A DNA stretch of 32,971 nt from Thermotogae bacterium (lineage in GTDB: Bacteria > Thermotogota > Thermotogae > Petrotogales > Petrotogaceae): contig JAKJGQ010000006.1 of the NCBI GenBank assembly GCA_022704305.1, positions 10,894 to 43,864 of the forward strand. Reading direction: 5' to 3'. Both the position numbers and the translations under genes were made by a program. Under the pieces are notes generated by a model. That model worked only from the letters and a program-made list of their open reading frames with translations, did not search any database and was not told the origin of the DNA. Of this stretch, positions 3,279 through 32,971 are shown in pieces. How positions within the stretch are numbered: the stretch's first letter is position 1; the number at the start of each line of letters is the position of its first letter.

Positions 3279-4043
3279 TTAAGCTATTAACAAGGACTGA
3301 GTTCTGTATTGAACAGGGCTCAGTCCTTTTAGCTTGCCCTTGATCCTATGATGATTGTAGTAGTATATGTATTTTTCAAGTTCCTCACGGAACTCTTCAA
3401 AACTTTCAAACTCCCGAAGATACAGTAGCTCAGATTTAAGTATGCCAAAGAAGTTCTCCATTACAGCATTATCCAGACAGTTGCCTTTCATGGACATACT
3501 CTGTCGGATACCTTTTTCTTTTAGGCGGTGCTGATACATTTTGTGCTGGTACTGCCACCCTTGATCGGAGTGAAAAATCAGATTAGTACCATCCGCATAC
3601 ATATCCAAGATTGGAGATAAATAAAGCTTCCTGCTAAAGAGAGAGAACTCTGTTATATCGGTTGTCCATTTCTGGTTAGGTGCGTTTGCATGGAAATTTC
3701 TATTGATTAGGTTAGGCGCTACTTTTCCAATATCTCCTTTGTATGAACGATACTTCCTAATCCTTACTCTGCACTTCAAACCAAGGATATTCATTAACCG
3801 ACTCACGGTCTTATGGTTGATGATATATCCACGGTTTCGTATCTCAAGAGTTATCCTTCGATAACCATACCTGCCTTGATTTTCATGGTAGATAGCAGTT
3901 ATCTCTTCCTTTTCGATACGATACTTATCCAGCCGTTGCATTCGTTTTAGATAGTAGTAATATGTGCTTCTTGGTAGACCTGCGATAACTAACAGAGCCT
4001 TAAGCGGATATTTCTGCCTTAGTTCTGAAATGACTGTTACTTT
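3279..4043 (-). CDS. IS150-group transposase orfB (DDE integrase domain) with internal deletion
   Basis: This frame supplies the catalytic half of the transposase. From the frameshift zone it reads VTVISELRQKYPLKALL, then the HTH_21 segment (YGYRRITLEIRNRGY), then the rve core. The three acidic residues are visible: D in WTTDITEF, D in FHSDQGWQYQ and E in NAVMENFFG, with 35 residues between the second D and E. Only 30 residues separate the first and second D; IS150-like proteins have about 59. About 29 residues are therefore missing in frame at LDMY/ADGTNL (near 3600). The first ATG in this frame is at 3941, but family practice is a -1 frameshift from orfA. With the deletion, this copy is probably inactive. 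Confidence 0.85.
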   Translation of the reverse strand, partial: KVTVISELRQKYPLKALLVIAGLPRSTYYYYLKRMQRLDKYRIEKEEITAIYHENQGRYGYRRITLEIRNRGYIINHKTVSRLMNILGLKCRVRIRKYRSYKGDIGKVAPNLINRNFHANAPNQKWTTDITEFSLFSRKLYLSPILDMYADGTNLIFHSDQGWQYQHKMYQHRLKEKGIRQSMSMKGNCLDNAVMENFFGILKSELLYLREFESFEEFREELEKYIYYYNHHRIKGKLKGLSPVQYRTQSLLIA

Positions 4044-4555
4044 TTCTTCTGTTCTGATTTTTCCCGCTCGAGAACTAAGGCGTTCAATTTTTTTAAGTAT
4101 TCATTCTCCATGCGAAGACGCTGGACTTCTGCCAGAAGATCTTCGTTCTCATTGACATTTTTCTTTGGTTTGAGGTTTTTCTTCTTTATCATGCTTTTTC
4201 GTCCTCGTCTTTCCTTCAGAAGGGCTTGTGGTCCTTCTTCATAATATATGTGCTCCCATTTTGCCACTGTAGGGGCACTGGGAATACAGAAATAGTTAGC
4301 TGTTTCTCTTAATGACATTTCTTTCATGTGCATATATTCTACAACATAGATTTTAAATTTTCCACTATATGTTCCTAAAGAACTACATAAGCCTTCAGAA
4401 CCATGAGTTTCATAAAGACGAACCCACCGTTCAAGAATGGAGTGATTTATACCATATTTCTTTGTAATAGTTTTAAATCCTCCATTTTTACCAGAGAGAT
4501 ACTCATCAACTAACATTAGTCTAAATTCATCTGAATACTTTCTTTTTCTTGACAT
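4037..4555 (-). CDS. IS150-group transposase orfA (helix-turn-helix protein)
   Basis: This is a 172-residue basic protein. The N-terminal helix-turn-helix region contains SDEFRLMLVDEYLSG, and a second one follows (MSLRETANYFCIPSAPTVAKW). The C-terminus is a leucine-zipper-like coiled coil (ENEDLLAEVQRLRMENEYLKK), as in IS3-family OrfA. It ends in a lysine-rich tail coded by an A-rich run, where a -1 slip would join it to orfB to make the full transposase. The start ATG at 4555 lies 49 bases from the element end. It is intact here, and its N-terminal portion is nearly identical in copy 1. Confidence 0.9.
   Translation of the reverse strand: MSRKRKYSDEFRLMLVDEYLSGKNGGFKTITKKYGINHSILERWVRLYETHGSEGLCSSLGTYSGKFKIYVVEYMHMKEMSLRETANYFCIPSAPTVAKWEHIYYEEGPQALLKERRGRKSMIKKKNLKPKKNVNENEDLLAEVQRLRMENEYLKKLNALVLEREKSEQKKK
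4040..4051 (-). promoter_or_regulatory. Probable -1 programmed frameshift site joining orfA and orfB
   Basis: On the minus strand the end of orfA reads CAG-AAG-AAA-AAG-TAA. A -1 slip on the final A-AAG gives GTA-ACA-GTC, which continues without a stop into the orfB frame. IS3-family elements normally make their transposase this way. The heptamer is not a perfect A-AAA-AAG, because G precedes the last AAA codon. Confidence 0.6.
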
Positions 4556-4632: not shown

Positions 4633-6825
4633 CTAAGCTTTTTTCATCATATTTTTTACAATAAAACTAGCAACATGTGCTCCCTTGGTTCCTCTACCAA
4701 AACCTGCATCCATACTGTTCTCTATAGCCATATCATTAGAGATTTGTGTTCCGCCTACGATAAGAAGAAACTTATCTCTTACCCCTTTTTCCACAGCAAT
4801 ATCGTTAAGTTTTTTCATGTTTGCAATATGTATATCATTATGAGTGACTATCATGGAAGCAAGCACGGCATCGGCACCAACTTCTATTGCAGAATCTATC
4901 ATTTTTTCAGGAGGAATACTGGTTCCAAGATAAACATACTTTATACCGTACTTTTCTATTCCGCCATGCTTTATATCAAGAATTTCCCTCAGTCCGACGT
5001 TATGCTCGTCGTTTCCCACAGTACCAGCTACAACTTTTATTACTCTTTTTTTGCAGAAGTCAAAAAGTACATCTTCAGAAAGTGCTTCAGTTTTTTTGGG
5101 AAGTACAAGATCCTTCTTGTTAATGAAAAAAGGCACTTTACCTTTAAGCTCAACATATGTTCCTTCGCTTGGATGTAGAACCTTTATACTAATAACTTCG
5201 GGATCTTCAAGACCCATTTTACGGCATATTTCAATTGCTGCAGCTTCTGCATATTCGGAACTTTCCGGTATGGTCATGTCTATCTGTATCACTCCGTCAT
5301 AACTCCATTCCGTTTCAGGCTTGATAAGATCTTTTTTTCTGTACTCACGTATATCCAGCAATCGTTTCTGTACATTGTCATCTTCATCCAGTTCATTGAG
5401 AAACTTAATTTTGTTATGGTGACAAAGGGTACAACCACCTACCGGATCACAGTCTTTTATGATCCCTGCAGGGAGATTATTGTAACCGAAATGTTCACAT
5501 ACTGGCGCCATATAATCTTGATCTCTGGGAACAACTGTTCCGGCGCCTATTCCCCCGTCTTTCTGCCTTACTATTCCATCTCCCATTCTTTCGGGATAAA
5601 AACCATTGTCTACGAACATTCCCTCTTCAACAGCATTGAAAAATCCACCCATTTCGATGATTTCTTCAAGCATCAGTATAGCTCTTATTTTGAGGTTGCG
5701 TATATCTTCACGGACGTTTGCTTCATCTATCTTTACATACTTCTTTATGCCGTCCATAGATATCAGAGTATGCTTGGCCGTCTCTATACCTCTTATCGAA
5801 TTGATATGCCATGGAACATTCCTGCCTTCATCTGGAGTTATAGTAGACTGCAGATCGGCACTTGTAAGCCTTGAAAGCGCTGCATTAAGTACGTGTATCC
5901 TTGTCGCATCCATAAGATCTGATTCTATATACCGTGTGTTCATCTGTGCCCTGAATCTATAGCCCTTAAAAAGTTCACGTATTGTAAGCGCATAGATCAT
6001 ATTTATTCTCATTTCCGGTGAAGGCGATGTCGTAGGAGGCACGGTTGAAAGAGCAATGTTACCCTTTTTCATTCCTGCCTTTACAGAGTACAAGGAGTTT
6101 ACCGCATGCTGTACCAGAAGCTCAGGCATAACATTCCATGCTTTTTTTGCTGATGCATTGGCATTGTGGGCCCCGTCTATCTGAAGCATATCTGCGCTTG
6201 CCATTATTTTCTTTGCTACGGCTGCATCCACAAAGGAGCGAACCATATTTATTCCCCTGTAAAGAACATTATACTGCGGATCCTGATGTGCACCGTTTAT
6301 ACCTTCTTCGGCAAAAAGAACTGCAACTTCCGGTCCTGCTATTCCGCTTATATAGCTGTGAAGATTTATAGGCCTACCTACTTCATCTTCTATAAGGTCC
6401 AAAGCTTTTCTTGAAGCTCTGATCTGTTTGCGAGTTATAGGAATGCCGCCTATTCCTTCAGGAGTACCTTCAATCAGTCCGTCCATATGACTCTGCCCGA
6501 GAGTCCTGATAACCATTATATGGTCTGCACCATACCATGCTGCCATTCTCATTCTTCTTATATCTTCTTCAAACCTTCCAGAAGCAATTTCAGAAGTTAT
6601 GTTAACTTCTGGCTGTGGATCAATGTTGCCAAAGTAATGGGCAGAAGGAAGTGGCAGTGAGTTTTTAAGAGGTTCACTTATCTGGAAATACTTAAAACCA
6701 TTTATTTCTGTTCCCTCTTTAAGAGGCTTGCGCCAGTGCCAGCCTTTCCTTCTGGGAGCATAATTTTCAAGATCATTGAGTATCTCGTCGATATTTATCT
6801 TTTCATTTATATTCAATTCTTTCAT
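4633..6825 (-). CDS. oraE: D-ornithine 4,5-aminomutase, large (E) subunit, adenosyl-B12 and PLP dependent
   Basis: This is the catalytic subunit that moves the terminal amino group of ornithine to form 2,4-diaminopentanoate. The 730 residues consist of a long N-terminal TIM-barrel/PLP region (to about residue 500) and a C-terminal cobalamin-binding Rossmann domain. The B12 motif DxHxxG is seen as DEHNVG at residues 606-611, followed by YVYLGTS and the later IVGGTQ typical of base-off/His-on cobalamin domains. The length is close to the family norm (about 730-750). The start overlaps the oraS stop (ATGA), and GAGGGGG lies about 9 bases upstream. It is the last operon gene before the IS. Lysine 5,6-aminomutase is related but is split differently, and the ord/ort neighbours settle the assignment. 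Confidence 0.95.
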   Translation of the reverse strand: MKELNINEKINIDEILNDLENYAPRRKGWHWRKPLKEGTEINGFKYFQISEPLKNSLPLPSAHYFGNIDPQPEVNITSEIASGRFEEDIRRMRMAAWYGADHIMVIRTLGQSHMDGLIEGTPEGIGGIPITRKQIRASRKALDLIEDEVGRPINLHSYISGIAGPEVAVLFAEEGINGAHQDPQYNVLYRGINMVRSFVDAAVAKKIMASADMLQIDGAHNANASAKKAWNVMPELLVQHAVNSLYSVKAGMKKGNIALSTVPPTTSPSPEMRINMIYALTIRELFKGYRFRAQMNTRYIESDLMDATRIHVLNAALSRLTSADLQSTITPDEGRNVPWHINSIRGIETAKHTLISMDGIKKYVKIDEANVREDIRNLKIRAILMLEEIIEMGGFFNAVEEGMFVDNGFYPERMGDGIVRQKDGGIGAGTVVPRDQDYMAPVCEHFGYNNLPAGIIKDCDPVGGCTLCHHNKIKFLNELDEDDNVQKRLLDIREYRKKDLIKPETEWSYDGVIQIDMTIPESSEYAEAAAIEICRKMGLEDPEVISIKVLHPSEGTYVELKGKVPFFINKKDLVLPKKTEALSEDVLFDFCKKRVIKVVAGTVGNDEHNVGLREILDIKHGGIEKYGIKYVYLGTSIPPEKMIDSAIEVGADAVLASMIVTHNDIHIANMKKLNDIAVEKGVRDKFLLIVGGTQISNDMAIENSMDAGFGRGTKGAHVASFIVKNMMKKA

Positions 6826-7193
6826 GCTTTATTTACCCCCTCAAAAATCCTCTGCACAACATCCCAGAGCCTTCCCTGTATAAGTTCGGTTCCGGCCTGC
6901 TCCATGCTGATATTCTGATCCTTTGAGACTCTATATACTATATTTCCTGCGCCTTTGCCCAAAAGACCTTTTTCAAATATCTTGTCAACAAGTGCTTTAG
7001 CCTGAAGAGAACTGAACCCCATTCGTAAAAGAACAGATCTTTCTATTGAAGGGGATGTGTTCTTATATGCAAGATCTATGAGAGGATCAACTATCTTTTC
7101 GGTAAGATTCCAAAAGTATTTTTCCAGTTCCTCATCACTCATTTTTTCAAATCTCTTAGCTTTTACTTCAAAATCATCTTTCCTAGGAATCAT
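6822..7193 (-). CDS. oraS: D-ornithine 4,5-aminomutase, small (S) subunit
   Basis: This is the small partner of OraE, needed for an active aminomutase. From the ATG at 7193 it is 123 residues, close to the roughly 121 of clostridial OraS. An in-frame TTG at 7214 would add seven residues, but the G-run GGGGGG six bases before ATG 7193 favours the internal start (MIPRKDDFEVKAKRF). The protein is mostly helical, with SIERSVLLRMGFSSLQAKAL in the middle and DQNISMEQAGTELIQGRLW near the end. Its TGA overlaps the oraE ATG, consistent with equal production of the two subunits. Confidence 0.92.
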   Translation of the reverse strand: MIPRKDDFEVKAKRFEKMSDEELEKYFWNLTEKIVDPLIDLAYKNTSPSIERSVLLRMGFSSLQAKALVDKIFEKGLLGKGAGNIVYRVSKDQNISMEQAGTELIQGRLWDVVQRIFEGVNKA

Positions 7194-19329: not shown

Positions 19330-20502
19330 ATGAGAATTACAGAGATAATGATAAATAATTCGGCACTAAGCGATCTTCAGAGCACCATGCGAAAGTTCAG
19401 TAAGCTAAATGAACAGCTCACTTCAGGCAAAAAAGTTAATTTCCCTTCGGACAATGCAGCCATTGCTTCAAGAATGTCAAACCTCGATAGCAGGCTTAGG
19501 GAAATAGAGCGCTATCAGAGCAATGCAAGTATTGTAGAAAACTTTTCCAAGATGTATGATCAGATACTTCAGGATGTATCGTCAGTCTATACCAGAGTGA
19601 AATCACTTGCCGTTCAGGGAGCCAACTCTGGAACCCTTGACAGCAACCTTGACAGAAAAAGCATTGCAGACGAACTGGAAAAAATTAACGATCATCTCAT
19701 TTCTCTTGCCAATACAAGCGTATCTGGAAAGTTTATTTTCGGAGGTGCTGAGTCTGATAAAACCCCTGTTAGTGATTCAGGAGACATCATGACAGATCCG
19801 AAAGCAAATATCAAGCATAAAATATCAGTTGGCGGATACGAGCTTGAGTATGGAGTAACTGTATACGATGCTTTCGGAACCAAAAGCGGAACCTCTATAT
19901 TTAAGATAGTCGACAGACTTAAAGATGCCTTTATTAAATCTGACGAGATAACCAAAGACCTAAAGGATGCCATAAAAACCAAGGATAATCTGAGCATGCA
20001 GAATGTAACGTTAAAAAATGAAATAAAAGAGATTGAAAAAAGAAAGCTCCAGGCTGAAGCTGCCGGCAATACTGCTTTGGCTGCTTCTCTCCAGACTCAG
20101 ATCGATGAAAAAAACAGCTCGATAGCAACTAATGAAACCAAAATCAAAGAACTCCAGGGTGATCCTTCCGCCGCAACTCCTGTGAAAGGATTAATTGAAA
20201 GCAAATCTGAACTCCTCAAAAAAGCTGCCGAAAGCATTCAAAATGAACTCGGAGCCATAGATGAAATTCAGGAGTCCTCCAGCAGAACAATTTCTCAGGT
20301 AGGCGGAACTCAAAGACTCCTTGAACTTACCAACAGCAGGATGGAGAACTTCAAAACTTTTTCGGAGGAGTTTCTTGCTACTGAGACAGATGCTGACCCA
20401 GCAAAGGTTTATACCGATATGGCTATGCAAAAATCAGTAATGGACGCAGCTTTAAAAGCTTTGGCACAGATAGTCCCCAAAACCATCCTTGACTTTATGT
20501 GA
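19330..20502 (+). CDS. flgL: Flagellar hook-associated protein 3, with coiled-coil insertion
   Basis: This is the second hook-filament junction protein. The N-terminus is flagellin-like (MRITEIMINNSALSDLQSTM, LNEQLTSGKKVNFPSDNAA), followed by SVSGKFIFGG and a C-terminal helix ending ALAQIVPKTILDFM. At about residues 205-300 a strongly predicted coiled coil is inserted (LKNEIKEIEKRKLQAEA, AASLQTQIDEKNSSIA), giving 390 residues against about 300 in many bacteria. ATG 19330 follows AGGAGG by five bases; an earlier in-frame start at 19306 is inside flgK and has no binding site. Confidence 0.93.
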   Translation: MRITEIMINNSALSDLQSTMRKFSKLNEQLTSGKKVNFPSDNAAIASRMSNLDSRLREIERYQSNASIVENFSKMYDQILQDVSSVYTRVKSLAVQGANSGTLDSNLDRKSIADELEKINDHLISLANTSVSGKFIFGGAESDKTPVSDSGDIMTDPKANIKHKISVGGYELEYGVTVYDAFGTKSGTSIFKIVDRLKDAFIKSDEITKDLKDAIKTKDNLSMQNVTLKNEIKEIEKRKLQAEAAGNTALAASLQTQIDEKNSSIATNETKIKELQGDPSAATPVKGLIESKSELLKKAAESIQNELGAIDEIQESSSRTISQVGGTQRLLELTNSRMENFKTFSEEFLATETDADPAKVYTDMAMQKSVMDAALKALAQIVPKTILDFM

Positions 20503-20515
20503 TAGATATATAAAA

Positions 20516-21022
20516 ATGTTCGTTTTCAAAAAAAAATCCCTCCTTCCGATTATTTTTTTCTGTATGCTTTTACTTACAGCTTGCGGACCAGTATATGAGG
20601 AAAAACCGGAAGTGTATACAAAAGAACTCTCCGTCTTTGTGGACGAAGAGTTTTGTTATACTGTTTTCATAAAAAATTTTCCTAATATAAAAAGCTTCAG
20701 TATCCTTATTGATTTTGACAAGAACTATCTGGCTCCTGTTTTTGTTGACGAAAGGTTCTATTATACTCTGAGTCCTCTGGCTGATTCTTCTCTGGTTTTC
20801 ACAAAACACAGTTACAACTCTTTGGTTGTGGGAGTGACTATGACAGAAGCTTTTTCAGCCGGCGCAGAGGAAATGGTGTTGTTGGTTTTCAAGTTCAAAG
20901 CCAAATCACCTGGCGATACAGCCATACACATTGTGCAAACAGATACGACTTTTTTTTCCGAAAACTTAAACACTCCTTTTTCAGGTTATTCGGTTATCAA
21001 TTCATCAATACATATAAGATAG
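20516..21022 (+). CDS. Small lipoprotein with a cohesin-like beta domain, in the flagellar operon
   Basis: This protein has about 168 residues. A lipoprotein signal peptide is clear: basic MFVFKKK, a hydrophobic core, and lipobox LLTAC with Cys at about residue 23. The mature part is a single beta-sandwich-like domain. The pattern VFIKNFPNIKSFSILIDFDKNYLAP, then SLVVGVTMTEAFSAG, then VLLVFKFKAKSPGDTAIHIV follows that of cohesin/CBM-type domains. The ATG at 20516 is 13 bases after the flgL stop but has a poor ribosome binding site; a TTG at 20489 would overlap flgL. It and the next lipoprotein sit between flgL and fliW. The cohesin-like call is from pattern recognition only. Confidence 0.7.
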   Translation: MFVFKKKSLLPIIFFCMLLLTACGPVYEEKPEVYTKELSVFVDEEFCYTVFIKNFPNIKSFSILIDFDKNYLAPVFVDERFYYTLSPLADSSLVFTKHSYNSLVVGVTMTEAFSAGAEEMVLLVFKFKAKSPGDTAIHIVQTDTTFFSENLNTPFSGYSVINSSIHIR

Positions 21023-21035
21023 TCAGAGGTGTTTT

Positions 21036-23711
21036 ATGAAAAATGCATATTTGGTTACTGTTCTGTTTATTATAGTTTTTTTATTTTCAGCGTGCACTTC
21101 GAAAAGTTCTGCGTTTCAGCCGATAAATTCCAAAAATATTTCCATATCAGACAGCGATCATGGAGCAGTTCTTTCAACATCGCGTGATATATACGGTATA
21201 CAGTTACATATAAAAACTCCTGAAGGTACTAACCGTGAAGATCTAGTTTTTTCAGGAGACATTATTCATATTATACAGCAGATAAATCCTGCAGAGTACA
21301 AAGTTGTACTGGCAGGTAAAAACGGATTCATAAAACCTTCAGAACCTTTTCTTACCATAAAAAAAGCAAAATCCAAAGATATACATATAATAAACGAGGA
21401 GCTGCCGCTTTCAGAGAAGGCTCTTACTGTACGAAGCTTTATAGACCGCAACGATACGGACTACTCTAAATATGGACTTTATATCAAGAAAAGCTTTACT
21501 CTCAAGGGCGATGAGCTTTTGTGCGATCTATATGCCGTAAATAGGAAAGGAAAAGAAAAGCTCTATGCTTTTGGCCTAGAATTCACATTTGCCAGTACCG
21601 CTCTCACACTTAATGATTTCACATTTTCCCCTTCGATAAACACAGATTTCATATCTCTTAAATCAGATGCTTCTTCTATGCCTTTTATAATTGCAAGTTC
21701 GGCACGTTCAAAGGAAAAAGCACTGGACTTTACTTCACCTTTAAAAATAGGAACCTTCAGATTCAGTGTAATCGGTGAGAACCTTGCGGCTGCACTTGAT
21801 ATAAACGTAGACAGTTTAAAAGTAATCGATACCCTGGACAGTTCAATTAAAGACCTGCCTGTGATTGTTCCTGCAAAAGGAACGCCTGTGGTGATGATAC
21901 AATCCTTTGTGGGAGATTTTAATAAAGATGGATCCATAGACGGAACAGATCTTTCAATTTTTCAGGCTGCATACTTTGCCAATAATACGGCAGTTGATAT
22001 ATACCCGGCACAGGATACTGACAAAGACGGTTTTTATGATATAAGTACAGGTGACATGAAAATCACGGTTGACGACCTTATAGTCTTTGCCGCAAATTAC
22101 AGTAAAAAAATGGGCTTTCCAACATATCCATATCCTGAAAATCTGACTGTAAAAACTCCTCTTGATACCAAATTGAAATGGGAGTATTTTGGTACCGCTT
22201 CTCCCTCATCTTTAAGAATTCATTATGGAAACAGCATTTCATCAATGACAAATGAAGTTCCCGCATCAGACATAGACCTTGCTTCAAAAACTGCTACCCT
22301 GCCTCTACTGTCCGAGGATAAATCCTATTATTGGCAGGTTTCTGCAACTTACCCTGCCGGAGAGGTTCACAGTGAAATATGGAAGTTCAGCACAAACGGA
22401 CTTCCTAAAATATCAGTAAACAGGCTGGGCAGTAAGGAAGGTACGGCAATTCCTTCCGGATTAACCGATGTGGCCATAAGCAATATTCCTATATACTGGT
22501 CGGCACCTGATTCTGACGGAGATACTGTAACTTGCACAATCAAGCTTTTCAATTCATCAGACTATCTTGAATCTTCGGAAATATCCGGTGCTTTTTCAGA
22601 AACAACTCAGTCATCGGCAACCATAAAAGGACCTCTTCTGTACAACAAAGATTACTTCATTCAGATAAGAGCAGAAGACAGTTCTCTGGGAGTTTCGGTT
22701 CTGGGAAATGCTGCTTCGCCGTATTTTTTCAGAACCAAAGAAGGAATTTCTCTGGACAGCAGTACTTTCCCGCTTAAGAAAGCTTATGTGTCTGCGCGCT
22801 TTAACGGACTTTACGAAGTAGACTATTCTGCTCTCATATCCTCCGGGACTGTTTCATCCTCGTGCGCTTTTAACACTCCTGGCTTATTCCCTATAGTGGA
22901 ATCAGAGTACTTTCAAAACAATAAAACAGACCCTCAATACATGATAAGCGTTATAGGCAACTATAATAAAGATCCAAAGTTCTACATCGGACAGAGTCAT
23001 GTTCTTGGAGCGTTTGACACTATCCCTGCCTCCTTCACGGGACTTAAGGAAGAATGGTCTGTCTGTGCCCTGACAATGGAGTCTGAAGGCGCAACCAAGC
23101 TCTTTATAGGCACTTCTTCAAATATTTATAAATTCCCTGATATAACTGACCTTTCAAACTTTAAGAAGCTTAAGGTTCCAGGTATAGACGACATGGAAAA
23201 GAAAGGAAATTACCTTTATCTCGCCTGCAAGTCAGCTAATAGGCTCCTAGTAGTCGACACTTCAGGAGATATGATGATCAAGGCTTCCAAGGCTATAGGT
23301 AGTCCCATCGACCTTAAGGTAAACGGAGACTTCCTTTATGTCCTTACAGAAGGCAAAACCCTTTTTAAGTATAGTATAGTTTCTCCTGAGCTTCTCATAG
23401 ATAAGGGAAATATAACTTCGGTCGGCGGACTTTCCGCAGTTTACAAACTAGCCGTATACTCTGATAGCTCAGCTAAAGCTGGATATGTGTGTTGTGGATC
23501 AGGTGGACTTAAAGTTATAGACCTCGAAAAAATGACAGAAGCAAAGGCTTTAAAGGACATTGAAGCCAAGGATGCTGTTGTGAGGGGAAAGCTTTTATTT
23601 GTAATTTCCGAAAATTCAATATACTTTTATTCACTTATGGAACCCATGAATCCTCAGCTTATAAAATCTTGGCCGGTTACTTCAAACTTATCCACCATAA
23701 AAGTATGGTAG
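21036..23711 (+). CDS. Large multidomain lipoprotein: cohesin-like, dockerin, FnIII-like and propeller-like segments
   Basis: The protein has 891 residues and a lipobox FLFSAC (Cys at residue 20). In order: a beta-rich N-terminal part (about 25-120); a cohesin-like domain (about 145-265); a dockerin type I module with two calcium loops (GDFNKDGSIDGTDLSIF at about 293-309 and DTDKDGFYD...ITVDDLIVFAANY at about 327-355); two fibronectin-III-like domains (about 363-455 and 456-567), the second with a DSDGDTV calcium-type loop; and a C-terminal part (about 580-891) with repeated short motifs such as KLFIGTSSNIYKF, YLYLACKSANRLLVVD and AGYVCCGSGGLKVIDL, typical of LVIVD/propeller repeats. Its start is preceded by AGAGGTG. 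Presumably it is anchored at the cell surface or in the periplasm. Function unknown. Confidence 0.75.
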   Translation: MKNAYLVTVLFIIVFLFSACTSKSSAFQPINSKNISISDSDHGAVLSTSRDIYGIQLHIKTPEGTNREDLVFSGDIIHIIQQINPAEYKVVLAGKNGFIKPSEPFLTIKKAKSKDIHIINEELPLSEKALTVRSFIDRNDTDYSKYGLYIKKSFTLKGDELLCDLYAVNRKGKEKLYAFGLEFTFASTALTLNDFTFSPSINTDFISLKSDASSMPFIIASSARSKEKALDFTSPLKIGTFRFSVIGENLAAALDINVDSLKVIDTLDSSIKDLPVIVPAKGTPVVMIQSFVGDFNKDGSIDGTDLSIFQAAYFANNTAVDIYPAQDTDKDGFYDISTGDMKITVDDLIVFAANYSKKMGFPTYPYPENLTVKTPLDTKLKWEYFGTASPSSLRIHYGNSISSMTNEVPASDIDLASKTATLPLLSEDKSYYWQVSATYPAGEVHSEIWKFSTNGLPKISVNRLGSKEGTAIPSGLTDVAISNIPIYWSAPDSDGDTVTCTIKLFNSSDYLESSEISGAFSETTQSSATIKGPLLYNKDYFIQIRAEDSSLGVSVLGNAASPYFFRTKEGISLDSSTFPLKKAYVSARFNGLYEVDYSALISSGTVSSSCAFNTPGLFPIVESEYFQNNKTDPQYMISVIGNYNKDPKFYIGQSHVLGAFDTIPASFTGLKEEWSVCALTMESEGATKLFIGTSSNIYKFPDITDLSNFKKLKVPGIDDMEKKGNYLYLACKSANRLLVVDTSGDMMIKASKAIGSPIDLKVNGDFLYVLTEGKTLFKYSIVSPELLIDKGNITSVGGLSAVYKLAVYSDSSAKAGYVCCGSGGLKVIDLEKMTEAKALKDIEAKDAVVRGKLLFVISENSIYFYSLMEPMNPQLIKSWPVTSNLSTIKVW

Positions 23712-23730
23712 TTTTATAGTATAATAGCAG

Positions 23731-23754
23731 GGAGGGGATTTTCTCCTCCCTTTC
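23731..23754 (+). terminator. Terminator-like hairpin between the large lipoprotein gene and fliW
   Basis: GGGAGGGGA (23731-23739) pairs with TCTCCTCCC (23743-23751), eight standard pairs and one G-T, loop TTT, with only a short T-tail. TATAAT lies just upstream at 23721-23726 but has no -35. The hairpin may reduce read-through to fliW-csrA. Confidence 0.55.
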
Positions 23755-23777
23755 ATACTCATAAAGGAGGCTCGGCA

Positions 23778-24275
23778 ATGAATATTATACAGACCAAAAT
23801 CGGAACAATCGACATTGAAAAGCATCAGATAATAACTTTTGAAAGTGGTCTCCCTGGTTTTGAAAATCTTAGCAAATTCATAGTCTATACAGACGATTCC
23901 ATAGCCCCCATACTCTGGCTGGTAAGTATAGAAGATTCTGAAATTGCCTTTCCGGTCATTCCGCCTAAAAATGTTCGTATTGATTACTCCTTCTTTATTC
24001 CGCAGGAAGTAGTTGACTATCTGGAAATATCCAAAGAGGAAGATCTAGTTATTCTTTCCGTTCTGACTATTCCGCAGCAGTCACAGGAGATCTCCCTTAA
24101 TCTTATAGCTCCGATGCTCATATCGCTCATAAATAAGAAAGGTATTCAGCTTATACTGGACAATACTCAGTACAAGTCCAAACATCTGCTGAAAGAAGAA
24201 CTGGAAAGATCTCAAAATCTTCTTAAACAAAGTGCAGGTGAGGATAATGCTGGTTCTGACGAGAAAAACCAATGA
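23778..24275 (+). CDS. fliW: Flagellar assembly factor, CsrA antagonist
   Basis: FliW binds CsrA and prevents it from blocking flagellin translation; flagellin in turn binds FliW, so filament growth is tied to flagellin supply. The 165 residues contain family blocks IITFESGLPGFENLSKFIVY, PILWLVSIEDSEIAFPVI, LVILSVLTIP and ISLNLIAPMLI. AAAGGAGG lies upstream of the ATG. It overlaps the csrA start, the usual fliW-csrA arrangement. The C-terminal 30 residues are polar and variable. Confidence 0.95.
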   Translation: MNIIQTKIGTIDIEKHQIITFESGLPGFENLSKFIVYTDDSIAPILWLVSIEDSEIAFPVIPPKNVRIDYSFFIPQEVVDYLEISKEEDLVILSVLTIPQQSQEISLNLIAPMLISLINKKGIQLILDNTQYKSKHLLKEELERSQNLLKQSAGEDNAGSDEKNQ

Positions 24276-24501
24276 GTATGTTGAGATAATTGCTGGTGAT
24301 AGACATATAAAAATCACCATTCTGGACTCTAACAGAGGTACTGTGAAAATAGGTTTTGACGCTGAAAAGGATATAAAGATATACCGTGGTGAGGTTTACG
24401 ATGAAATAGTTTCACAGAATATTTCATCGGTAAATACAGATATTAAATCCCTTAAAGACATATCAAGGATTTTTCCGGGAGGAAAAAAGGGTGAGAATTG
24501 A
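24247..24501 (+). CDS. csrA: Carbon storage regulator, RNA-binding translational regulator
   Basis: This is a small dimeric protein that binds GGA motifs in mRNA leaders. MLVLTRKTNEYVEI at the start and VKIGFDAEKDIKIYRGEVYDE are diagnostic. From ATG 24247 it is 84 residues, a little longer than the usual 60-75; the C-terminal extension ends DISRIFPGGKKGEN. It starts inside the fliW 3' end (GTGAGG just upstream), so the two are probably coupled. The stop is overlapped by the next gene. Confidence 0.96.
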   Translation: MLVLTRKTNEYVEIIAGDRHIKITILDSNRGTVKIGFDAEKDIKIYRGEVYDEIVSQNISSVNTDIKSLKDISRIFPGGKKGEN

Positions 24502-25309
24502 TCCATATATTAAGGAACAGCTTTCTCCTTTGTTTTCTGAGGTCAAGCCGCCTGATGTGGCAATACTGGGCGGCATAGAAGTTGAACACACAATTAAAAA
24601 GTGCTCAGACAACTACTCGATAGAAACGTTTATAGGAGGTAACGGGACACGTACGGCTCTGGAACTTAAAGGGCTGGGTATAGTACCTTCTATTTTAGCT
24701 TTTTTGGGACAGGATGAGTTTCTGAACATGGTTCTTAATTTTTTTGATTCCAGAAACATTTCCGTACGTTGGACTCCCAATAATTTGAAAACCCAACGCA
24801 GGCTTACATTTACCGATACCGGAGAAGTTATACTTCAGCGCAATGACTACATCATAACCATCAACCCCATATTTATAGAAGAGTTTATATATAATGTCAA
24901 AGCCGTGCTTGTAAACGTTGAGAGATGGAACGTTGATATAATCGATTTTCTCAGCTATGAGAAAAAGATGACCTTTGTCCATGCGGATCTTGATATTATT
25001 GATTCTTTTTCTTTTTCATGTAAAGTGTTATTTATTAAATCAAACGATATCCCCAAGGCACTTGAGACTGCTTCAAAGGCTAACTATGAAAGCTTGATCA
25101 TTTTCAACGCTGACGGAATATACTTTGACGGTCTGACCATAAAACCAGATGTATGCTCAAAAGAGTACAGAGATCAGGCTGTATCTGTTTATGAAGCGGT
25201 ATTTATTGAAGCCGTTCTGCACAGTATGTCTTATGCACAGGCACATGATTATGCTTTCAGATACTTCGCTTATGTACTTGCAAACGGCAGTAAAATAGAA
25301 AACATTTAA
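24491..25309 (+). CDS. PfkB-fold (ribokinase-like) protein, probably catalytically degenerate
   Basis: This 272-residue protein resembles PfkB carbohydrate kinases: a first strand VAILGGIEVEHTI, the N-terminal signature-like block IGGNGTRTALELKGLG, then FLGQDEFLNMVLNFF and the sugar-pocket edge. In the C-terminal half, where active kinases carry (D)TxGAGD, this one reads DQAVSVYEAVFIEAV, so the Gly-rich anion hole is gone and the catalytic Asp is at best a Glu. The C-terminus YAQAHDYAFRYFAYVLANGS keeps the usual helix layout. The start is GTG at 24491, 8 bases after GGAGG, overlapping csrA. Placement as the last flagellar operon gene suggests a binding or regulatory role. That is inference. 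Confidence 0.7.
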   Translation: MRIDPYIKEQLSPLFSEVKPPDVAILGGIEVEHTIKKCSDNYSIETFIGGNGTRTALELKGLGIVPSILAFLGQDEFLNMVLNFFDSRNISVRWTPNNLKTQRRLTFTDTGEVILQRNDYIITINPIFIEEFIYNVKAVLVNVERWNVDIIDFLSYEKKMTFVHADLDIIDSFSFSCKVLFIKSNDIPKALETASKANYESLIIFNADGIYFDGLTIKPDVCSKEYRDQAVSVYEAVFIEAVLHSMSYAQAHDYAFRYFAYVLANGSKIENI

Positions 25310-25318
25310 TCAGCAAAC

Positions 25319-25347
25319 TTGACAAATATGTTTATACGTGGTATAAT
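25319..25347 (+). promoter_or_regulatory. Perfect consensus housekeeping promoter
   Basis: TTGACA (25319-25324), a 17-base spacer, TATAAT (25342-25347): both hexamers match exactly and the spacing is optimal. Transcription should start near 25354. The only product before the terminator at 25456-25494 is the candidate small RNA. Confidence 0.85.
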
Positions 25348-25353
25348 TTTTTT

Positions 25354-25494
25354 GTTAATGTAAACAGCTTAATTATTTCTGTTACGCCTGTAATTTTCAA
25401 AGTAACATAATAATGAAAAAGCTCAAGGGGTTCTCGGGGGGACTATATGTCCAAGTTGATGCTTGTATTGTACAAGCATCAATTTTATTTTTTC
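25354..25494 (+). ncRNA. Candidate small RNA of about 140 nt, unrecognised family
   Basis: This unit is defined by a perfect promoter upstream and a strong terminator at its end. It includes hairpins GTAA(A)CAG/CTGTTAC, an alternative pairing TGTTAC/GTAACA that shares the same strand, and GGAC-TATAT-GTCC around 25438-25452. A 31-codon frame (ATG 25413) has no ribosome binding site and runs through the terminator, so coding is unlikely. I do not recognise SRP RNA, 6S, tmRNA, RNase P RNA or a known riboswitch. Only one GGA occurs, so a CsrA-sponge role is not favoured. Confidence 0.55.
25456..25494 (+). terminator. Strong intrinsic terminator of the candidate small RNA
   Basis: TTGATGCTTGTA (25456-25467) pairs perfectly with TACAAGCATCAA (25471-25482), loop TTG, followed by TTTTATTTTTT. 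Confidence 0.92.
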
Positions 25495-25504
25495 TACTAT
25501 ACTA

Positions 25505-25533
25505 TTGACTAGTTCTTTCTTCTATGATATAAT
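25505..25533 (+). promoter_or_regulatory. Promoter of tRNA-Ser
   Basis: TTGACT (25505-25510), 17-base spacer, TATAAT (25528-25533), 19 bases before the mature tRNA 5' end. Eleven of twelve consensus bases match. Confidence 0.85.
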
Positions 25534-25552
25534 ATATAAGGTTTTAAGATAC

Positions 25553-25641
25553 GGAGAGATGGCCGAGTGGTCGAAGGCGCACGCCTGGAGAGCGTGTTAC
25601 GGCAAAACCGTACGTGGGTTCAAATCTCACTCTCTCCGCCA
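25553..25641 (+). tRNA. tRNA-Ser (anticodon GGA)
   Basis: This is an 89-base class II tRNA with an encoded CCA end. The acceptor stem GGAGAGA pairs with TCTCTCC. The anticodon loop CTGGAGA gives GGA, reading UCC and UCU. A long variable arm (TGTTACGGCAAAACCGTACG) is typical of serine tRNAs. The T-arm GTGGGTTCAAATCTCAC is regular. Confidence 0.97.
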
Positions 25642-25643
25642 TA

Positions 25644-25673
25644 AAAAAATCTGCTCATAAGAGCAGATTTTTT
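25644..25673. terminator. Bidirectional terminator between tRNA-Ser and the VOR operon
   Basis: AAAAAATCTGCTC (25644-25656), loop ATAA, GAGCAGATTTTTT (25661-25673), with a T-run in both directions. It ends the tRNA on the plus strand and the vorC-distal operon on the minus strand. Confidence 0.92.
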
Positions 25674-25681
25674 GTTTTTAC

Positions 25682-26224
25682 TTACTTTCCTGCAGCAACC
25701 ATTCCACTTTCAATAGCTTTCATATTCAAATCGATAAGCTTGGCTTTCGTGCCGGTGAGCTTATGCTCAAAAGCATGTTGTACAGCATCCATGGAGACAA
25801 TGTTGCTTACATGAAGGAAAGCTCCCATCATAACCATATTCTGTACTTTTATGTTCCCAAGCTTTTCAGCAATATCGTTTGCTGGAATTCTAAAAATTTT
25901 TATATCCTTTCTTTCTGGCACACTCTCAACAACCGAGGAATTTATTATGAGACTTCCGCCTTTAATGACCTGAGATACAAACTTGTTCATAGAAGGCAGG
26001 TTAAATGCAAGAAGCTCGGTAGGTGCATCTATAACCGGTGAAGCAATATACTCATCAGATATTACCACTGTACAGTTGGCTGTTCCGCCTCTCATCTCAG
26101 GACCATAAGAAGGAAGCCATGTCGTGAACTTACCGTCAAGCATAGCGGCATAAGAAAGAAGCTGTCCCAGAAGCATAACTCCCTGTCCTCCAAAACCTGC
26201 TGCAATTAATCCACTGTACTTCAT
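25682..26224 (-). CDS. vorC: 2-oxoacid:ferredoxin oxidoreductase, gamma subunit
   Basis: This is the gamma subunit of a CoA-dependent 2-oxoacid oxidoreductase. The 180 residues have the characteristic start GFGGQGVMLLGQLLSYAAM and SYGPEMRGGTANCTVVIS, the family's nucleotide/CoA-region motif. It is the last gene of the operon; its ATG overlaps the beta subunit's stop. Four separate subunits (D, B, A, C order) are present, as in VOR and KOR enzymes. Neighbouring ptb/buk genes make branched-chain 2-oxoacids the likely substrates, but 2-oxoglutarate cannot be excluded. Confidence 0.88.
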   Translation of the reverse strand: MKYSGLIAAGFGGQGVMLLGQLLSYAAMLDGKFTTWLPSYGPEMRGGTANCTVVISDEYIASPVIDAPTELLAFNLPSMNKFVSQVIKGGSLIINSSVVESVPERKDIKIFRIPANDIAEKLGNIKVQNMVMMGAFLHVSNIVSMDAVQHAFEHKLTGTKAKLIDLNMKAIESGMVAAGK

Positions 26225-26976
26225 TTAATATCACCTACCTTGTCTACATATACACCCAACGGAAACTCCTTGGTCATATTTTCTTCAAGCCACTTGAGCG
26301 ATTCAACAGGAGTGAGTCCCCAGTTTGTCGGACAAGTTGAAAGAACTTCAACCAAACCGAATCCAACATTGTTTATCTGAGCCATAAAGGCTTTTTTAAT
26401 AAGCTGCTTGGTTTTATTAACGTCCTGAGGAGTACTTACCTTAGTTCGTGCAAGAAATGCAACCCCGGTTATTTCCTTCAGAACTTCCGAAACATGTATC
26501 GGAAAACCTTCATTGGCAGGATTTCTGCCGTAAGGCGTAGTGGTGGTTTTCATTCCAACTAATGTTGTAGGAGCCATCTGACCGCCTGTCATTCCATATA
26601 TCGCGTTGTTGACGAATATAGTTGTTATCTTCTCGCCTCTGTTGGCAGCCTGTATAATCTCACCGGTACCTATTGCCGCAAGATCTCCGTCACCCTGATA
26701 TGTAAAAACAATCCTGTCAGGTCTTGCCCTTTTCATTCCGGTAGCTACAGCAGGTGCCCTTCCGTGTGGAGCTACGGTACCGTCAACATCAAAAAACTCA
26801 TATGAAAAAACCGAGCAGCCTACAGGAGCTACCATAAGTGTTTTTCCCTGTACTCCAAGTTCATCTATTACCTCGGCAACGATTCTGTGTATTATGCCGT
26901 GGTGACAGCCCGGACAGTATGTAAATTCTTTTGGGGTTAAAGATTTTGGACCTTTGTATCTTTCTGTATATGTCAT
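26221..26976 (-). CDS. vorA: 2-oxoacid:ferredoxin oxidoreductase, beta subunit (TPP-binding)
   Basis: This subunit carries the thiamine diphosphate site. The 251 residues contain the N-terminal YCPGCHHGIIHR (Cys motif near the start), YQGDGDLAAIGTGEIIQAA as the GDG start of the TPP motif, and the closing NNAIYGMTGGQMAPTT. The start ATG 26976 follows AAAGGAGGG. It is separated from vorB by 16 bases and overlaps vorC. With the alpha subunit it forms the heterotetramer core that decarboxylates the 2-oxoacid and passes electrons to ferredoxin. Confidence 0.92.
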   Translation of the reverse strand: MTYTERYKGPKSLTPKEFTYCPGCHHGIIHRIVAEVIDELGVQGKTLMVAPVGCSVFSYEFFDVDGTVAPHGRAPAVATGMKRARPDRIVFTYQGDGDLAAIGTGEIIQAANRGEKITTIFVNNAIYGMTGGQMAPTTLVGMKTTTTPYGRNPANEGFPIHVSEVLKEITGVAFLARTKVSTPQDVNKTKQLIKKAFMAQINNVGFGLVEVLSTCPTNWGLTPVESLKWLEENMTKEFPLGVYVDKVGDIK

Positions 26977-26992
26977 ATGAATAATCCCTCCT

Positions 26993-28060
26993 TTAAACCA
27001 GTTCCATCAATTTATCAAATATTTCTGTGGGAGTAGGGACCATTCCGCCCATTCTTCCATAAAACTTAACGGGACATCTTCCCTCTACTGCAAGCCTTAC
27101 GTCCTCAATCATCTGACCTGCGCTCATTTCTACTGTAAAGAAAAGTTTGGTTTCCTTTTTTGCCCACTTTGCTAATTCTGCATATGGAAATGGCCATAAT
27201 GTTATAGGTCTGAATACTCCGGCTTTTATTCCTTTATTTCTTGCCATCTTTGCAACAGACTTTGCTATTCTGCCTATAGTACCGTAGGATACTATGACAA
27301 CTTCGGCATCATCCATCATATACTCTTCATACATTTTTTCATTTTTTTCCATCTCAGCATACTTTTTCTGAAGGTTAAGATTCATCTTTTCAAGCCCTAC
27401 AGGATCTATATTAAAAGAAGTAACCTTATGTGCTTTTCGTTCAAGTTCAGTTCCCTGAAGAGCCCAAGAAGAATGCTTCTCAAGTTTTTCAAGGTTGCTG
27501 AAATCAGGAAATTCAACAGGCTCCATCATCTGTCCCAAAAGACCGTCAGCCAACAGAAGAACCGGATTTCTGTACTTATCAGCCTTATCAAAGGCTTTTA
27601 CAGTAAGCTCAACAGCTTCCTGCAAAGATTCCGGACCGTATACCAAAAGTCTGTAATCTCCGTGTCCGCCACCCTTGGTAGCCTGAAAGTAATCACACTG
27701 TGCGGGCTGTATGTCTCCAAGTCCCGGACCTCCTCTTACAACGTTGACAAAAACTGCCGGAAGTTCAGCTCCTGCTAAATAAGACATCGACTCCTGCATA
27801 AGTGAAAAACCCGGTGATGATGTTGAAGTAAGTGATCTTTTACCGGTACAAGCTGCTCCGTATATCATATTTACAGCAGCAACTTCGCTTTCAGCCTGTA
27901 AAAATACTCCATTAACCTCTTTTTCCGGCATTCTTCTGGCCATATATTCCGGCAACTCACTCTGTGGAGTTATAGGATATCCAAAATATAATCTACAGCC
28001 AGCTCTTATAGCTGCTTCTGCTATCGCTTCTGTTCCTTTGACCATAACTTTTCCGCTCAT
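26993..28060 (-). CDS. vorB: 2-oxoacid:ferredoxin oxidoreductase, alpha subunit
   Basis: This is the alpha subunit with the pyrimidine-binding and transketolase C-like domains. Of 355 residues, the first part (GTEAIAEAAIRAGCRLYFGY, PITPQSELPEYMARR, TSSPGFSLMQESMSYL) is highly conserved. The C-terminal part has DAEVVIVSYGTIGRIAKSV and a GVFRPITLWPFPYAEL motif. It is of the type usually annotated as 3-methyl-2-oxobutanoate dehydrogenase subunit VorB; substrate specificity is inferred from the ptb/buk context. The start follows AAGGGGG. The gap to vorD is 16 bases. Confidence 0.9.
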   Translation of the reverse strand: MSGKVMVKGTEAIAEAAIRAGCRLYFGYPITPQSELPEYMARRMPEKEVNGVFLQAESEVAAVNMIYGAACTGKRSLTSTSSPGFSLMQESMSYLAGAELPAVFVNVVRGGPGLGDIQPAQCDYFQATKGGGHGDYRLLVYGPESLQEAVELTVKAFDKADKYRNPVLLLADGLLGQMMEPVEFPDFSNLEKLEKHSSWALQGTELERKAHKVTSFNIDPVGLEKMNLNLQKKYAEMEKNEKMYEEYMMDDAEVVIVSYGTIGRIAKSVAKMARNKGIKAGVFRPITLWPFPYAELAKWAKKETKLFFTVEMSAGQMIEDVRLAVEGRCPVKFYGRMGGMVPTPTEIFDKLMELV

Positions 28061-28076
28061 TTTAGTACCCCCTTGA

Positions 28077-28295
28077 TTACGCGCTGGTTTTTACAACTAT
28101 ACATACATCAGGACACATTCTGTAACAAAAGCCGCATCCTATACATTCCTCCGGTTTTACAACTTCAGAGTAATGGTAGCCTTTGCTGTTATAGTTTTTT
28201 GAAAACTCCAAAACTTTTTTCGGGCATACATTTATGCAGAGCCCGCAGCCCTTGCATCTCTCCTGGTCAATGATTGTCAGGTTTTTATACTCCAT
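28077..28295 (-). CDS. vorD: 2-oxoacid:ferredoxin oxidoreductase, delta subunit (2[4Fe-4S] ferredoxin)
   Basis: This 72-residue ferredoxin-like protein has two complete 4Fe-4S motifs, CKGCGLCINVCP and CIGCGFCYRMCP. It serves as the internal electron carrier of the oxidoreductase. AAAGGAGG lies 9 bases before the ATG. It is the first gene of the vorDBAC block and follows the P-loop gene with a 43-base gap. Confidence 0.93.
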   Translation of the reverse strand: MEYKNLTIIDQERCKGCGLCINVCPKKVLEFSKNYNSKGYHYSEVVKPEECIGCGFCYRMCPDVCIVVKTSA

Positions 28296-28338
28296 GGGCC
28301 AATACCTCCTTTATAAAAGTATCTGATTTGTCCTTAAA

Positions 28339-29007
28339 TTACCATTCTGTCTTCATAAATCTTTTTATTTCGAACCTTTCGTTCAGGGTCTGAAGATCCT
28401 TTCGATCTTCGTTAACCATAGTAAAGGCAACAGGTATGTTTTTGTTCTGTGATACCCTCATTACCATCTTTTCACCAAGAGTGAGGTCGCCCTGACTGGT
28501 TTGTTCTACAATGTTTGTGTTACATATAAGATAATTTACATTTATTCTAGCTTTCTGCGATAATCTGTCTATATGCGAGGAGATTTTTTCCTCACTGTCC
28601 GTAAACGGTCTCATGGTATTGATTACAAAATAAACAGCTGCATCAGCATTTTGCAGGAAATTATTAAGTGAGCCGATGACCATTATTCCATCGTCATTCC
28701 CCCCTACGTCAAGAATTATCTTATACTCAGGATTACTTATGTATCCTCCCACTGCTGGTGAGATGATAGGAAGATCCGCATTAAGATAGATCTTGGGGGG
28801 AAGAATAACCTTGATATCTTTGTTTTCAAGGAACTCCGCTTTGTCTCTGGTTCGGAAATAAGGACTTATGATATCTATATCGGCTATAGATACTTTATCA
28901 AAAATATTTCTCATTCTTATGGAAAAGTTTATAGCAGCTTCTGTTTTTCCTGAGCCAAACATTCCAACAAAGATATGAACCTTATGATCAGTTATTCTGT
29001 TTCCCAT
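28339..29007 (-). CDS. P-loop ATPase of unknown function between buk and VOR genes
   Basis: This 222-residue cytoplasmic protein has Walker A GMFGSGKT at residues 15-22, a Walker-B-like IILDVGGNDDG and a later VNYLICNTNI, resembling the SIMIBI/CobQ-like P-loop fold. TRDKAEFLENKDIKVILPP and AVGGYISNP are further conserved-looking blocks. I cannot name the family. A TTG start at 29013 overlaps the buk stop; ATG 29007 is preferred. From memory, an uncharacterised gene holds the same place in Thermotoga maritima. Because of its place between butyrate kinase and the oxidoreductase, a maturation, insertion or regulatory role for the complex is a guess. Confidence 0.65.
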   Translation of the reverse strand: MGNRITDHKVHIFVGMFGSGKTEAAINFSIRMRNIFDKVSIADIDIISPYFRTRDKAEFLENKDIKVILPPKIYLNADLPIISPAVGGYISNPEYKIILDVGGNDDGIMVIGSLNNFLQNADAAVYFVINTMRPFTDSEEKISSHIDRLSQKARINVNYLICNTNIVEQTSQGDLTLGEKMVMRVSQNKNIPVAFTMVNEDRKDLQTLNERFEIKRFMKTEW

Positions 29008-29009
29008 AA

Positions 29010-30981
<1,972 letters not shown>

Positions 30982-30985
30982 ATCT

Positions 30986-32047
30986 TCACCTCTTCCATTC
31001 CATAGGCTTTTCTTTCCCGTTAAGAACCCTGAGGGCACCTGACGCAAGCGCCTGCATTTCATACGAACCTGGAAAAACCATCACAAGTCCCAGTTTTGAA
31101 ATACGCTTCTTGATTTTTTCCATAAACGTCTGACTGTACGCAAGACCACCAGTAATTACAATGGCATCAACATCACCTTTAAGAACTGTTGCCATTGCAC
31201 CTATTTCCTTGCATATCTGATACGCCATGGCATCAATAACCAGTCCGGCATTTTTATCGTTCTGCGCCATTTTAAAAGCTTCTCTCAGATCGTTGGTGCC
31301 AAGATATCCTATAAGACCACCATTGCCGACAAACCTTTTTTTAAGGGTTCTTCGATCGTATTTTCCAGAAAAAGCTATCTTGGCGACATCGCCTACCGGT
31401 AGCTCGCCGCTTCTTTCCGGACTGAATGGGCCTTCGTCATTAGCGTTGTTAACATCGATAATTCTGCCTTTATACTGTGCGGCTATTGATATTCCTCCGC
31501 CCAGATGGGCTATGATGAGATTAGACTGCAAGTAGTCTTTGCCTATCTCCTCGCATGCCTTACGGGCCACCATCTTTATATTAAGTGCATGCACCATGCT
31601 TTTTCTGGTTATTTCCTGCATTCCTGAGATTCTTGACTCATCTATAAACTCATCTACTGAAATAGGATCCGTTATATAGACAGGAACCTTATTTTCGGCT
31701 ATTTCCCATGCTATAACAGCGGCAAGATTCGAGGCATGATCCACAGGACACTCTTGTTCAAGATACTCGACCATGCTTTGGCTCACCGCATAGGTACCAC
31801 TGCAGAGCGGGGGGAGAATCCCCCCTCTTGCTGCAATTGCAGAAAGATCCTGAATATTTATATTATTTTCTCTCATGAACCTTAATACAGAATTTCTTCT
31901 GAGTTCTCTCTGTTCCATAATAGTTTTGTACTGTGCCAGTTCACTCAGCGGATGCTCAAGTGCTGATTCCCGGCTGAGAATATCATCAGTAAACAAAGAA
32001 ACCTTGGTTGATGTGGAACCGGGATTTATAACCAATATTTTTTTCAT
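30986..32047 (-). CDS. buk: Butyrate/branched-chain fatty acid kinase, copy 2
   Basis: This is a second ASKHA-fold kinase of 353 residues: [15 protein letters not shown] at the start, AHLGGGISIAAQYKGRIIDV in the centre, and GDVDAIVITGGLAYSQTF near the end. Like copy 1 it should phosphorylate ADP from an acyl-phosphate. The N-terminal region and many loops differ from copy 1, so they are not recent duplicates; different chain-length preferences are possible. AGGAGG lies upstream of the ATG. It is the second gene visible in the operon, after the aminotransferase. Confidence 0.92.
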   Translation of the reverse strand: MKKILVINPGSTSTKVSLFTDDILSRESALEHPLSELAQYKTIMEQRELRRNSVLRFMRENNINIQDLSAIAARGGILPPLCSGTYAVSQSMVEYLEQECPVDHASNLAAVIAWEIAENKVPVYITDPISVDEFIDESRISGMQEITRKSMVHALNIKMVARKACEEIGKDYLQSNLIIAHLGGGISIAAQYKGRIIDVNNANDEGPFSPERSGELPVGDVAKIAFSGKYDRRTLKKRFVGNGGLIGYLGTNDLREAFKMAQNDKNAGLVIDAMAYQICKEIGAMATVLKGDVDAIVITGGLAYSQTFMEKIKKRISKLGLVMVFPGSYEMQALASGALRVLNGKEKPMEWKR

Positions 32048-32061
32048 GTGTACTCCTCCTG

Positions 32062-32971
32062 TTACAGTTTTATTCCCTTGGCAGCACAGTACTTATCTAT
32101 AGTTCTCCTCAGCCTTTTCATTCCTTCTACAAGCTGTTCTTCAGTCGGGAGACAGAAAGAAAGCCTCATAGTATTTTTAAGAGGATTATCCACAAAGAAA
32201 GCTTCGCCAGGTATATAAAGGACTTTTTCCTTCTTGGCCATTTCAAACATTTCCATAGTATCTATCTGCTGCGGAAGCGTAAGCCATGTAAAAAGACCGC
32301 CCTCGGCTTTAGTCCAGCTGACGCCTTTTATATCTCCGAGATTGTCCTGCATGGCTTTCATAAATACATCCTTTTTATGTTTATAAAGTTCAATTGTGGG
32401 TTTTATCTGTTCAAAGAGATCATAACGCTCAAGAAATCTTGCTGTAAGCCTCTGGGTAACTGGAGAACAGCATAGATCAACAGCCTGTTTTGCCATAGCC
32501 ATTCTTCTTATTGCCTGGGTATTTCCTATTATTACGCCTATTCTCATGCCGGGTGAAAGAATCTTTGAGAATGTATTGAGCATTATAACTCTTTCACTGT
32601 TCATTGAGAATATACTCGGTACTTTGGTGCCTTCAAATCTCAATGCTCCGTAAGGATCATCTTCAAGTATTATAAAATCGTACTTTTCAGCAAGCTCAAT
32701 AAGCTTTTTCCTGTTATCAAGAGGCATTGTTATTCCGGCAGGGTTATGGAAGTTGGTTACGACATACATGAATTTAAACTTATGTAGCTCGTTTCTTTCT
32801 CTTAGCTTTATAAGTTCAGATTCCAGATAATCTGTATCTATACCTTTTTCACTCAGATTAACACTTATAAACTTTGGATTTCTCTGTGCAAAAGCACTTG
32901 CTGCTGCAAGATAAACCGGTCTTGTAACACCGCAATAACTCTCCTCATCAAGAAATGTAAGTCCGGCAAGA
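32062..32971 (-). CDS. Class I/II PLP-dependent aminotransferase (2-aminoadipate type), 5' end outside window
   Basis: The reading frame stays open from the stop at 32062 to the right edge, giving about 302 C-terminal residues; the real start lies beyond. Family motifs are clear: YVVTNFHNPAGITM, LEDDPYGALRFEG, and the PLP-lysine region NTFSKILSPGMRIG. The sequence resembles LysN-type (2-aminoadipate/multi-substrate) aminotransferases. Its place first in an operon with a 2-oxoacid oxidoreductase, ptb and buk suggests it makes branched-chain 2-oxoacids. The start is not visible, and the internal Met at 32769 should not be taken as one. Confidence 0.88.
   Translation of the reverse strand, partial: LAGLTFLDEESYCGVTRPVYLAAASAFAQRNPKFISVNLSEKGIDTDYLESELIKLRERNELHKFKFMYVVTNFHNPAGITMPLDNRKKLIELAEKYDFIILEDDPYGALRFEGTKVPSIFSMNSERVIMLNTFSKILSPGMRIGVIIGNTQAIRRMAMAKQAVDLCCSPVTQRLTARFLERYDLFEQIKPTIELYKHKKDVFMKAMQDNLGDIKGVSWTKAEGGLFTWLTLPQQIDTMEMFEMAKKEKVLYIPGEAFFVDNPLKNTMRLSFCLPTEEQLVEGMKRLRRTIDKYCAAKGIKL

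Follow-up and report, generated by a model that had tools for sequence, protein, structure and literature searches.

A predicted G-rich small RNA beside tRNA-Ser(GGA) in the Petrotogaceae, a candidate sponge for a C-rich small RNA of the Thermotogota

The window, the whole stretch of 32,971 nucleotides analysed here from a Petrotogaceae genome (assembly GCA_022704305.1, contig JAKJGQ010000006.1), carries fliW, csrA and an uncharacterised gene, followed by a short stretch bounded by a promoter and a terminator and then by a tRNA-Ser(GGA) gene (Table 1). The tRNA gene has a separate promoter of its own, and is therefore independent of the promoter that precedes it. The uncharacterised gene, which adjoins csrA, has no match in Pfam or NCBIfam, and relatives with 30-34% identity to it are present in most of the family's genomes. 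Elsewhere in the window (3279-4555, minus strand), two adjacent frames resemble an IS3-type transposase pair, as judged by eye from their translations.

Table 1. Features of the small RNA locus and its neighbourhood (window coordinates)
Feature	Position	Strand	Remarks
fliW	23778-24275	+	Pfam FliW; neighbourhood 23778..24501
csrA	24232-24501	+	Pfam CsrA
Uncharacterised gene upstream of the sRNA	24491..25309	+	Synteny marker
Sigma-70 promoter of the sRNA, TTGACA-N17-TATAAT	25319..25347	+	12/12 consensus; TG before the -10
Predicted G-rich small RNA, ~138 nt	25354..25491	+	Promoter-to-terminator span; both ends are predictions
G block 1, CTCAAGGGG	25422..25430	+	Exact complement of CCCCTTGAG in the C-rich locus L128 of the same genome
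G block 2, GGGGGG	25436..25441	+	Opposite the first C block of L128 in the co-fold; kept as GGGG or GGGGG by the relatives
Third pairing block, TATATGT	25444..25450	+	7 co-fold pairs with ACATGTA of L128
Intrinsic terminator and T-rich tail	25453..25491	+	Stem 25453-25485; terminators at the equivalent place in relatives
Promoter of the tRNA gene (separate), TTGACT-N17-TATAAT	25505..25533	+	11/12 consensus
tRNA-Ser(GGA)	25553..25641	+	Synteny marker

The small RNA (sRNA) gene is delimited by its own promoter and an intrinsic terminator with no intervening gene. Its promoter is the sole 12/12 match among 37 promoter-like sites in positions 20000-32971, and the only perfect promoter of the whole window, for which 0.035 are expected per first-order Markov copy. 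The terminator stem comprises 15 pairs, including G-U pairs, with a loop of 3, and is followed by TATTTTTTCT. Folding of the predicted RNA is beaten by only 1 of 200 dinucleotide shuffles (z -3.5), with a large share of this advantage attributable to the terminator hairpin. A scan of the whole window against Rfam returned the tRNA only, with no family at or above its gathering threshold for the sRNA, and a permissive search of the sRNA stretch yielded only eukaryotic snoRNA and miRNA noise. An exact consensus promoter and a strong terminator with a T-tail had been claimed in a preliminary description of this stretch, and both are confirmed; the orphan sRNA gene of about 140 nt proposed there, to be checked against Rfam, is supported, with its strong promoter and the negative Rfam result. 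Judged from the promoter sequence alone, the RNA would be abundant.

A BLAST search with the 161-nt stretch against 41 genomes gave short low-complexity matches only, and counterparts were instead located by synteny, using the upstream gene and tRNA-Ser(GGA). In representatives of three other genera (genomes G002, G005 and G006) the same tRNA gene is immediately preceded by a promoter, a short stretch and a terminator. Counting the window, the cassette occupies this site in four of the family's eight genera; it was not seen at the tRNA site in the four remaining genera. The only other genome of the genus (G001) is uninformative, its assembly lacking both the upstream gene and tRNA-Ser(GGA). 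The promoters of the relatives stand in the equivalent place and match 11-12 of 12 consensus positions (TTGACA-N17-TATAAT in G002, TTGACA-N17-TAAAAT in G005 and G006), and the order fliW, csrA, uncharacterised gene, sRNA, tRNA is also found in G002. The RNA bodies vary (73, 96 and 87 nt in G002, G005 and G006, respectively), and none of these three RNAs reaches an Rfam gathering threshold. The four RNAs share mainly a G-rich box, CAAGGGGTTCTCGGGGGGA in the window and CAGGGGGAATGGGGGA, CAGGGGGATTTTAGGGGA and CAGGGGGAATTTGGGGA in the relatives; outside this G-box, sequence conservation among them is poor. The comparison with related genomes suggested in the preliminary description thus finds the cassette kept in three further genera, and it alters one part of that account. 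The mutually exclusive pairings of a GTTAC strand described there do exist (GTTAC at 25381, GTAAC at 25402, GTTAA at 25354), but they are not conserved, since the counterpart RNAs of two genera measure only 73 and 87 nt and do not include that part. These alternative pairings were accordingly dropped as the key feature, and the element conserved among the four RNAs is the G-box.

The pattern TCAAGGGGN{1,9}GGGGR has a single match in the genome of the window, the sRNA itself, and other G-box matches in the class fall within long open frames or on the complement of C-rich genes. These last came to light in a G-box pattern search of 21 family genomes, which returned, besides the sRNA loci and some coding sequence, the string CAGGGGG(G)(G)ATAGGGGGA, with a single occurrence in most of the genomes. 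The opposite strand of this match reads as a promoter-like stretch, GATCCCCCTATCCCCC(CC)TGAGATAAACC and a terminator, that is, as a second unannotated RNA, with the core CCCCCTATCCCCCTTGAGATA placed before its terminator. Searched with a covariance model of this C-rich RNA, 54 of 61 Thermotogota genomes of the class gave a match at E<=1e-3, the E-values being rough and some of the 61 genomes having supplied sequences for training. Beyond the family, the usual core is CCCCCTATCCCCCTTGAGATACACCCCCCAC. The genome of the window has two C-rich genes, the class-like L128 (CCCCTATCCCCCTTGAG) and L127, in which the first C block is degenerate. A pattern scan of genome contigs gave 17 stretches. Most belong to Thermotogota (Fervidobacterium, Thermosipho, Marinitoga, Pseudothermotoga, Thermotoga and unnamed Thermotogota), and the others to Kribbella, an unclassified bacterium and a Bacillota bin; by this distribution, the class to which the window belongs falls within the Thermotogota. 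The Bacillota-labelled contig (JAMOAB010000007.1, L163) carries a C-rich RNA scoring 94.8 bits, like the copies of the window's family, and is probably misbinned. None of the C-rich copies scanned attained an Rfam gathering score; a permissive search gave one copy a match to SorX far below threshold, which was rejected. An additional C-rich RNA-like stretch, GAAGATATCCCCCTTCACCC followed by a terminator, occurs in G002 (L216, 5050-5230, complement), and several C-rich RNAs may therefore occur in some genomes.

TAAC boxes are frequent upstream of the C-rich RNA. In 21 regions, each of 150 bp upstream of C-rich loci (L077-L104, L130-L146), 56 boxes were counted against 21 expected, with 11 pairs spaced at 21 bp and 7 at 42, counts that come from related and not independent sequences. 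As a lead only, this arrangement suggests a regulated gene, as with a regulator using tandem sites. Control by Rex was considered from TTAACA boxes and from RoxS and set aside, no source for the motif having been found.

In each of the four genomes with a G-rich RNA, its G-box is complementary to a C-rich RNA encoded in the same genome. In the window, G block 1 forms 9 contiguous pairs with L128, and in G002, G005 and G006 the CAGGGGG of the G-rich RNA is the complement of CCCCCTG in the respective C-rich RNA, giving 7-8 contiguous pairs. The predicted co-fold of the window sRNA with L128 contains three blocks of 7, 5 and 10 pairs, and L128 is the best partner among 8 C-rich RNAs (-33.8 kcal/mol, with L127 at -25.4). 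The G-rich RNA is thus complementary to the seed of a trans-acting sRNA from its own genome, with moderate support from shuffle controls. Dinucleotide shuffles of the G-rich RNA paired at least as strongly as observed in 4, 4, 44 and 12 of 1000 cases (G000, the genome of the window, and G002, G005 and G006, in this order here and below). When the G runs were held in place the evidence was weaker (27, 172, 233 and 73 of 1000), and when the C runs were kept and the remaining C-rich RNA permuted, 69, 37, 201 and 32 of 2000 permutations did as well. Fisher combination of the four gives p ~ 0.0006 for the C-run set and ~0.015 for the G-run set, on an assumption of independence that is untrue for related sequences. 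In 800 kb of G002, a third of the genome, not one of 79,336 windows equals the strength with which that genome's G-rich RNA pairs with the C-rich RNA; this G-rich RNA favours the C-rich RNA designated A over two others seen there. In about 50 kb of the window's own genome, an unrelated stretch (complement of ~6822-6881) matches the duplex energy of the window sRNA, and the specific feature there is consequently the contiguous 9-nt match and not the energy. For the G-rich RNAs of G005 and G006, a non-cognate C-rich RNA (from G004) is a stronger partner than their own, and for that of G005 the reversed C-rich sequence pairs equally well. Pairing of the two RNAs is a prediction with moderate statistical support.

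The locus is taken, with reasonable though limited confidence, to encode a stand-alone and probably strongly transcribed G-rich sponge (anti-sRNA) for the class-wide C-rich sRNA. The C blocks of the C-rich RNA would be bound by the two G blocks and their flanks, so that the C-rich RNA would no longer reach its targets and might, in addition, be marked for decay; the strong promoter of the G-rich RNA would suit such a titrator. This reading draws on features found in the sequences, namely the promoter and terminator, their retention across four genera, the gene of the partner, the partner-fitting complementarity and the Hfq genes, and from these it infers transcription, a duplex in the cell, titration and regulation of mRNAs by the C-rich RNA. 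An Hfq gene was found in all 41 genomes searched. There are two in the window's own genome (G000:C111:11502-11693 and G000:C189:11763-11951) and in G001, and one in nearly all others searched. A point against the sponge reading is that the G-box of the window sRNA is partly paired in its predicted fold. Against 668 predicted start regions of G002, the C-rich RNA paired no better than its reversed sequence did, and in view of this lack of start-codon preference the mRNA targets that a sponge presupposes are hypothetical.

An unlikely alternative to the sponge is a base-pairing sRNA that would use its G-rich box on mRNAs or other RNAs directly, in which case the match to the C-rich RNA would be an effect of composition. 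Any C run pairs with G runs, and when the G runs are kept, complementarity exceeds chance only moderately; on the other hand, the sequences flanking the G runs suit the C-rich RNA of their own genome, and in the third of G002 that was sampled no other stretch is as good a partner for the C-rich RNA. An RNA sequestering CsrA, like CsrB or RsmZ, is brought to mind by a small RNA lying near csrA, with csrA and fliW just upstream, and by the GGA within the G runs of the relatives' RNAs. Known CsrA sponges carry several GGA motifs, whereas the window sRNA has a single one, predicted to be paired and outside any loop; moreover, the constant neighbour is the tRNA, with csrA otherwise arranged in G005 and G006, which leaves this reading improbable. 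Still less credit is given to a chance promoter and terminator without a functional RNA, or to a mere insulator before the tRNA gene: the poor conservation outside the G-box would fit either, but promoter, G-box and terminator are retained in four genera despite divergence elsewhere, and a perfect promoter is improbable by chance. A short translated frame or leader peptide, suggested by the only reading frame noted within the RNA, where an ATG at 25413 opens 31 codons over the G-box (TGA 25506-25508), and by an ATG likewise just before the G-box in G006, was rejected as barely credible, for the frame has no evident Shine-Dalgarno sequence or ribosome-binding site, crosses the terminator and is out of frame or stopped in the corresponding stretches of relatives, in keeping with the earlier claim that no credible gene lies within.

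The sponge reading has a close parallel in RosA of Bacillus subtilis, a sponge of RoxS and FsrA of ~229 nt with three G-rich regions (PMC8216469). RosA and the window RNA are both G-rich and stand alone, each between a promoter and a terminator of its own; both are complementary to the C-rich parts of an sRNA acting in trans, and both are restricted to part of their partner's range. The window RNA differs in belonging to another phylum, in length (73-138 nt for RNAs of the window type) and in having one two-block G-box in place of three G-rich regions; the likeness to RosA and RoxS is one of design, and the pairing of the window RNA is a prediction. RsaI of Staphylococcus aureus (PMC8216469) is likewise stand-alone and binds C-rich sRNAs through two G-rich regions, but it also has a C-rich region for mRNA targets, which was not seen in the window sRNA. 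The C-rich partner resembles RoxS/RsaE and FsrA of Firmicutes as a short RNA with C blocks and a terminator, and differs from them in its own core sequence and promoter boxes, its scanned copies lying below Rfam gathering scores.

Neither RNA is in Rfam, and neither is described in the open-access literature searched; novelty is meant relative to Rfam and open-access text. For Thermotoga maritima, one study (PMC3636130) reports few putative non-coding RNAs and refers for them to a supplementary table, among whose entries the C-rich RNA may figure as an unnamed transcript. A wider and more tentative proposal, held with somewhat less than even confidence, is a two-RNA circuit of the Thermotogota, in which certain lineages would keep the class-wide C-rich sRNA in check with a G-rich sponge, strongly expressed and altered in step with its partner, and in which the C-rich sRNA itself would probably be switched by a regulator reading the TAAC boxes spaced at 21 bp. 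If true, a C-rich sRNA present throughout the class, joined in some lineages by a complementary RNA, would mean that a deep-branching phylum has a network of regulatory sRNAs, and would provide a natural example of a sponge and its partner changing together.
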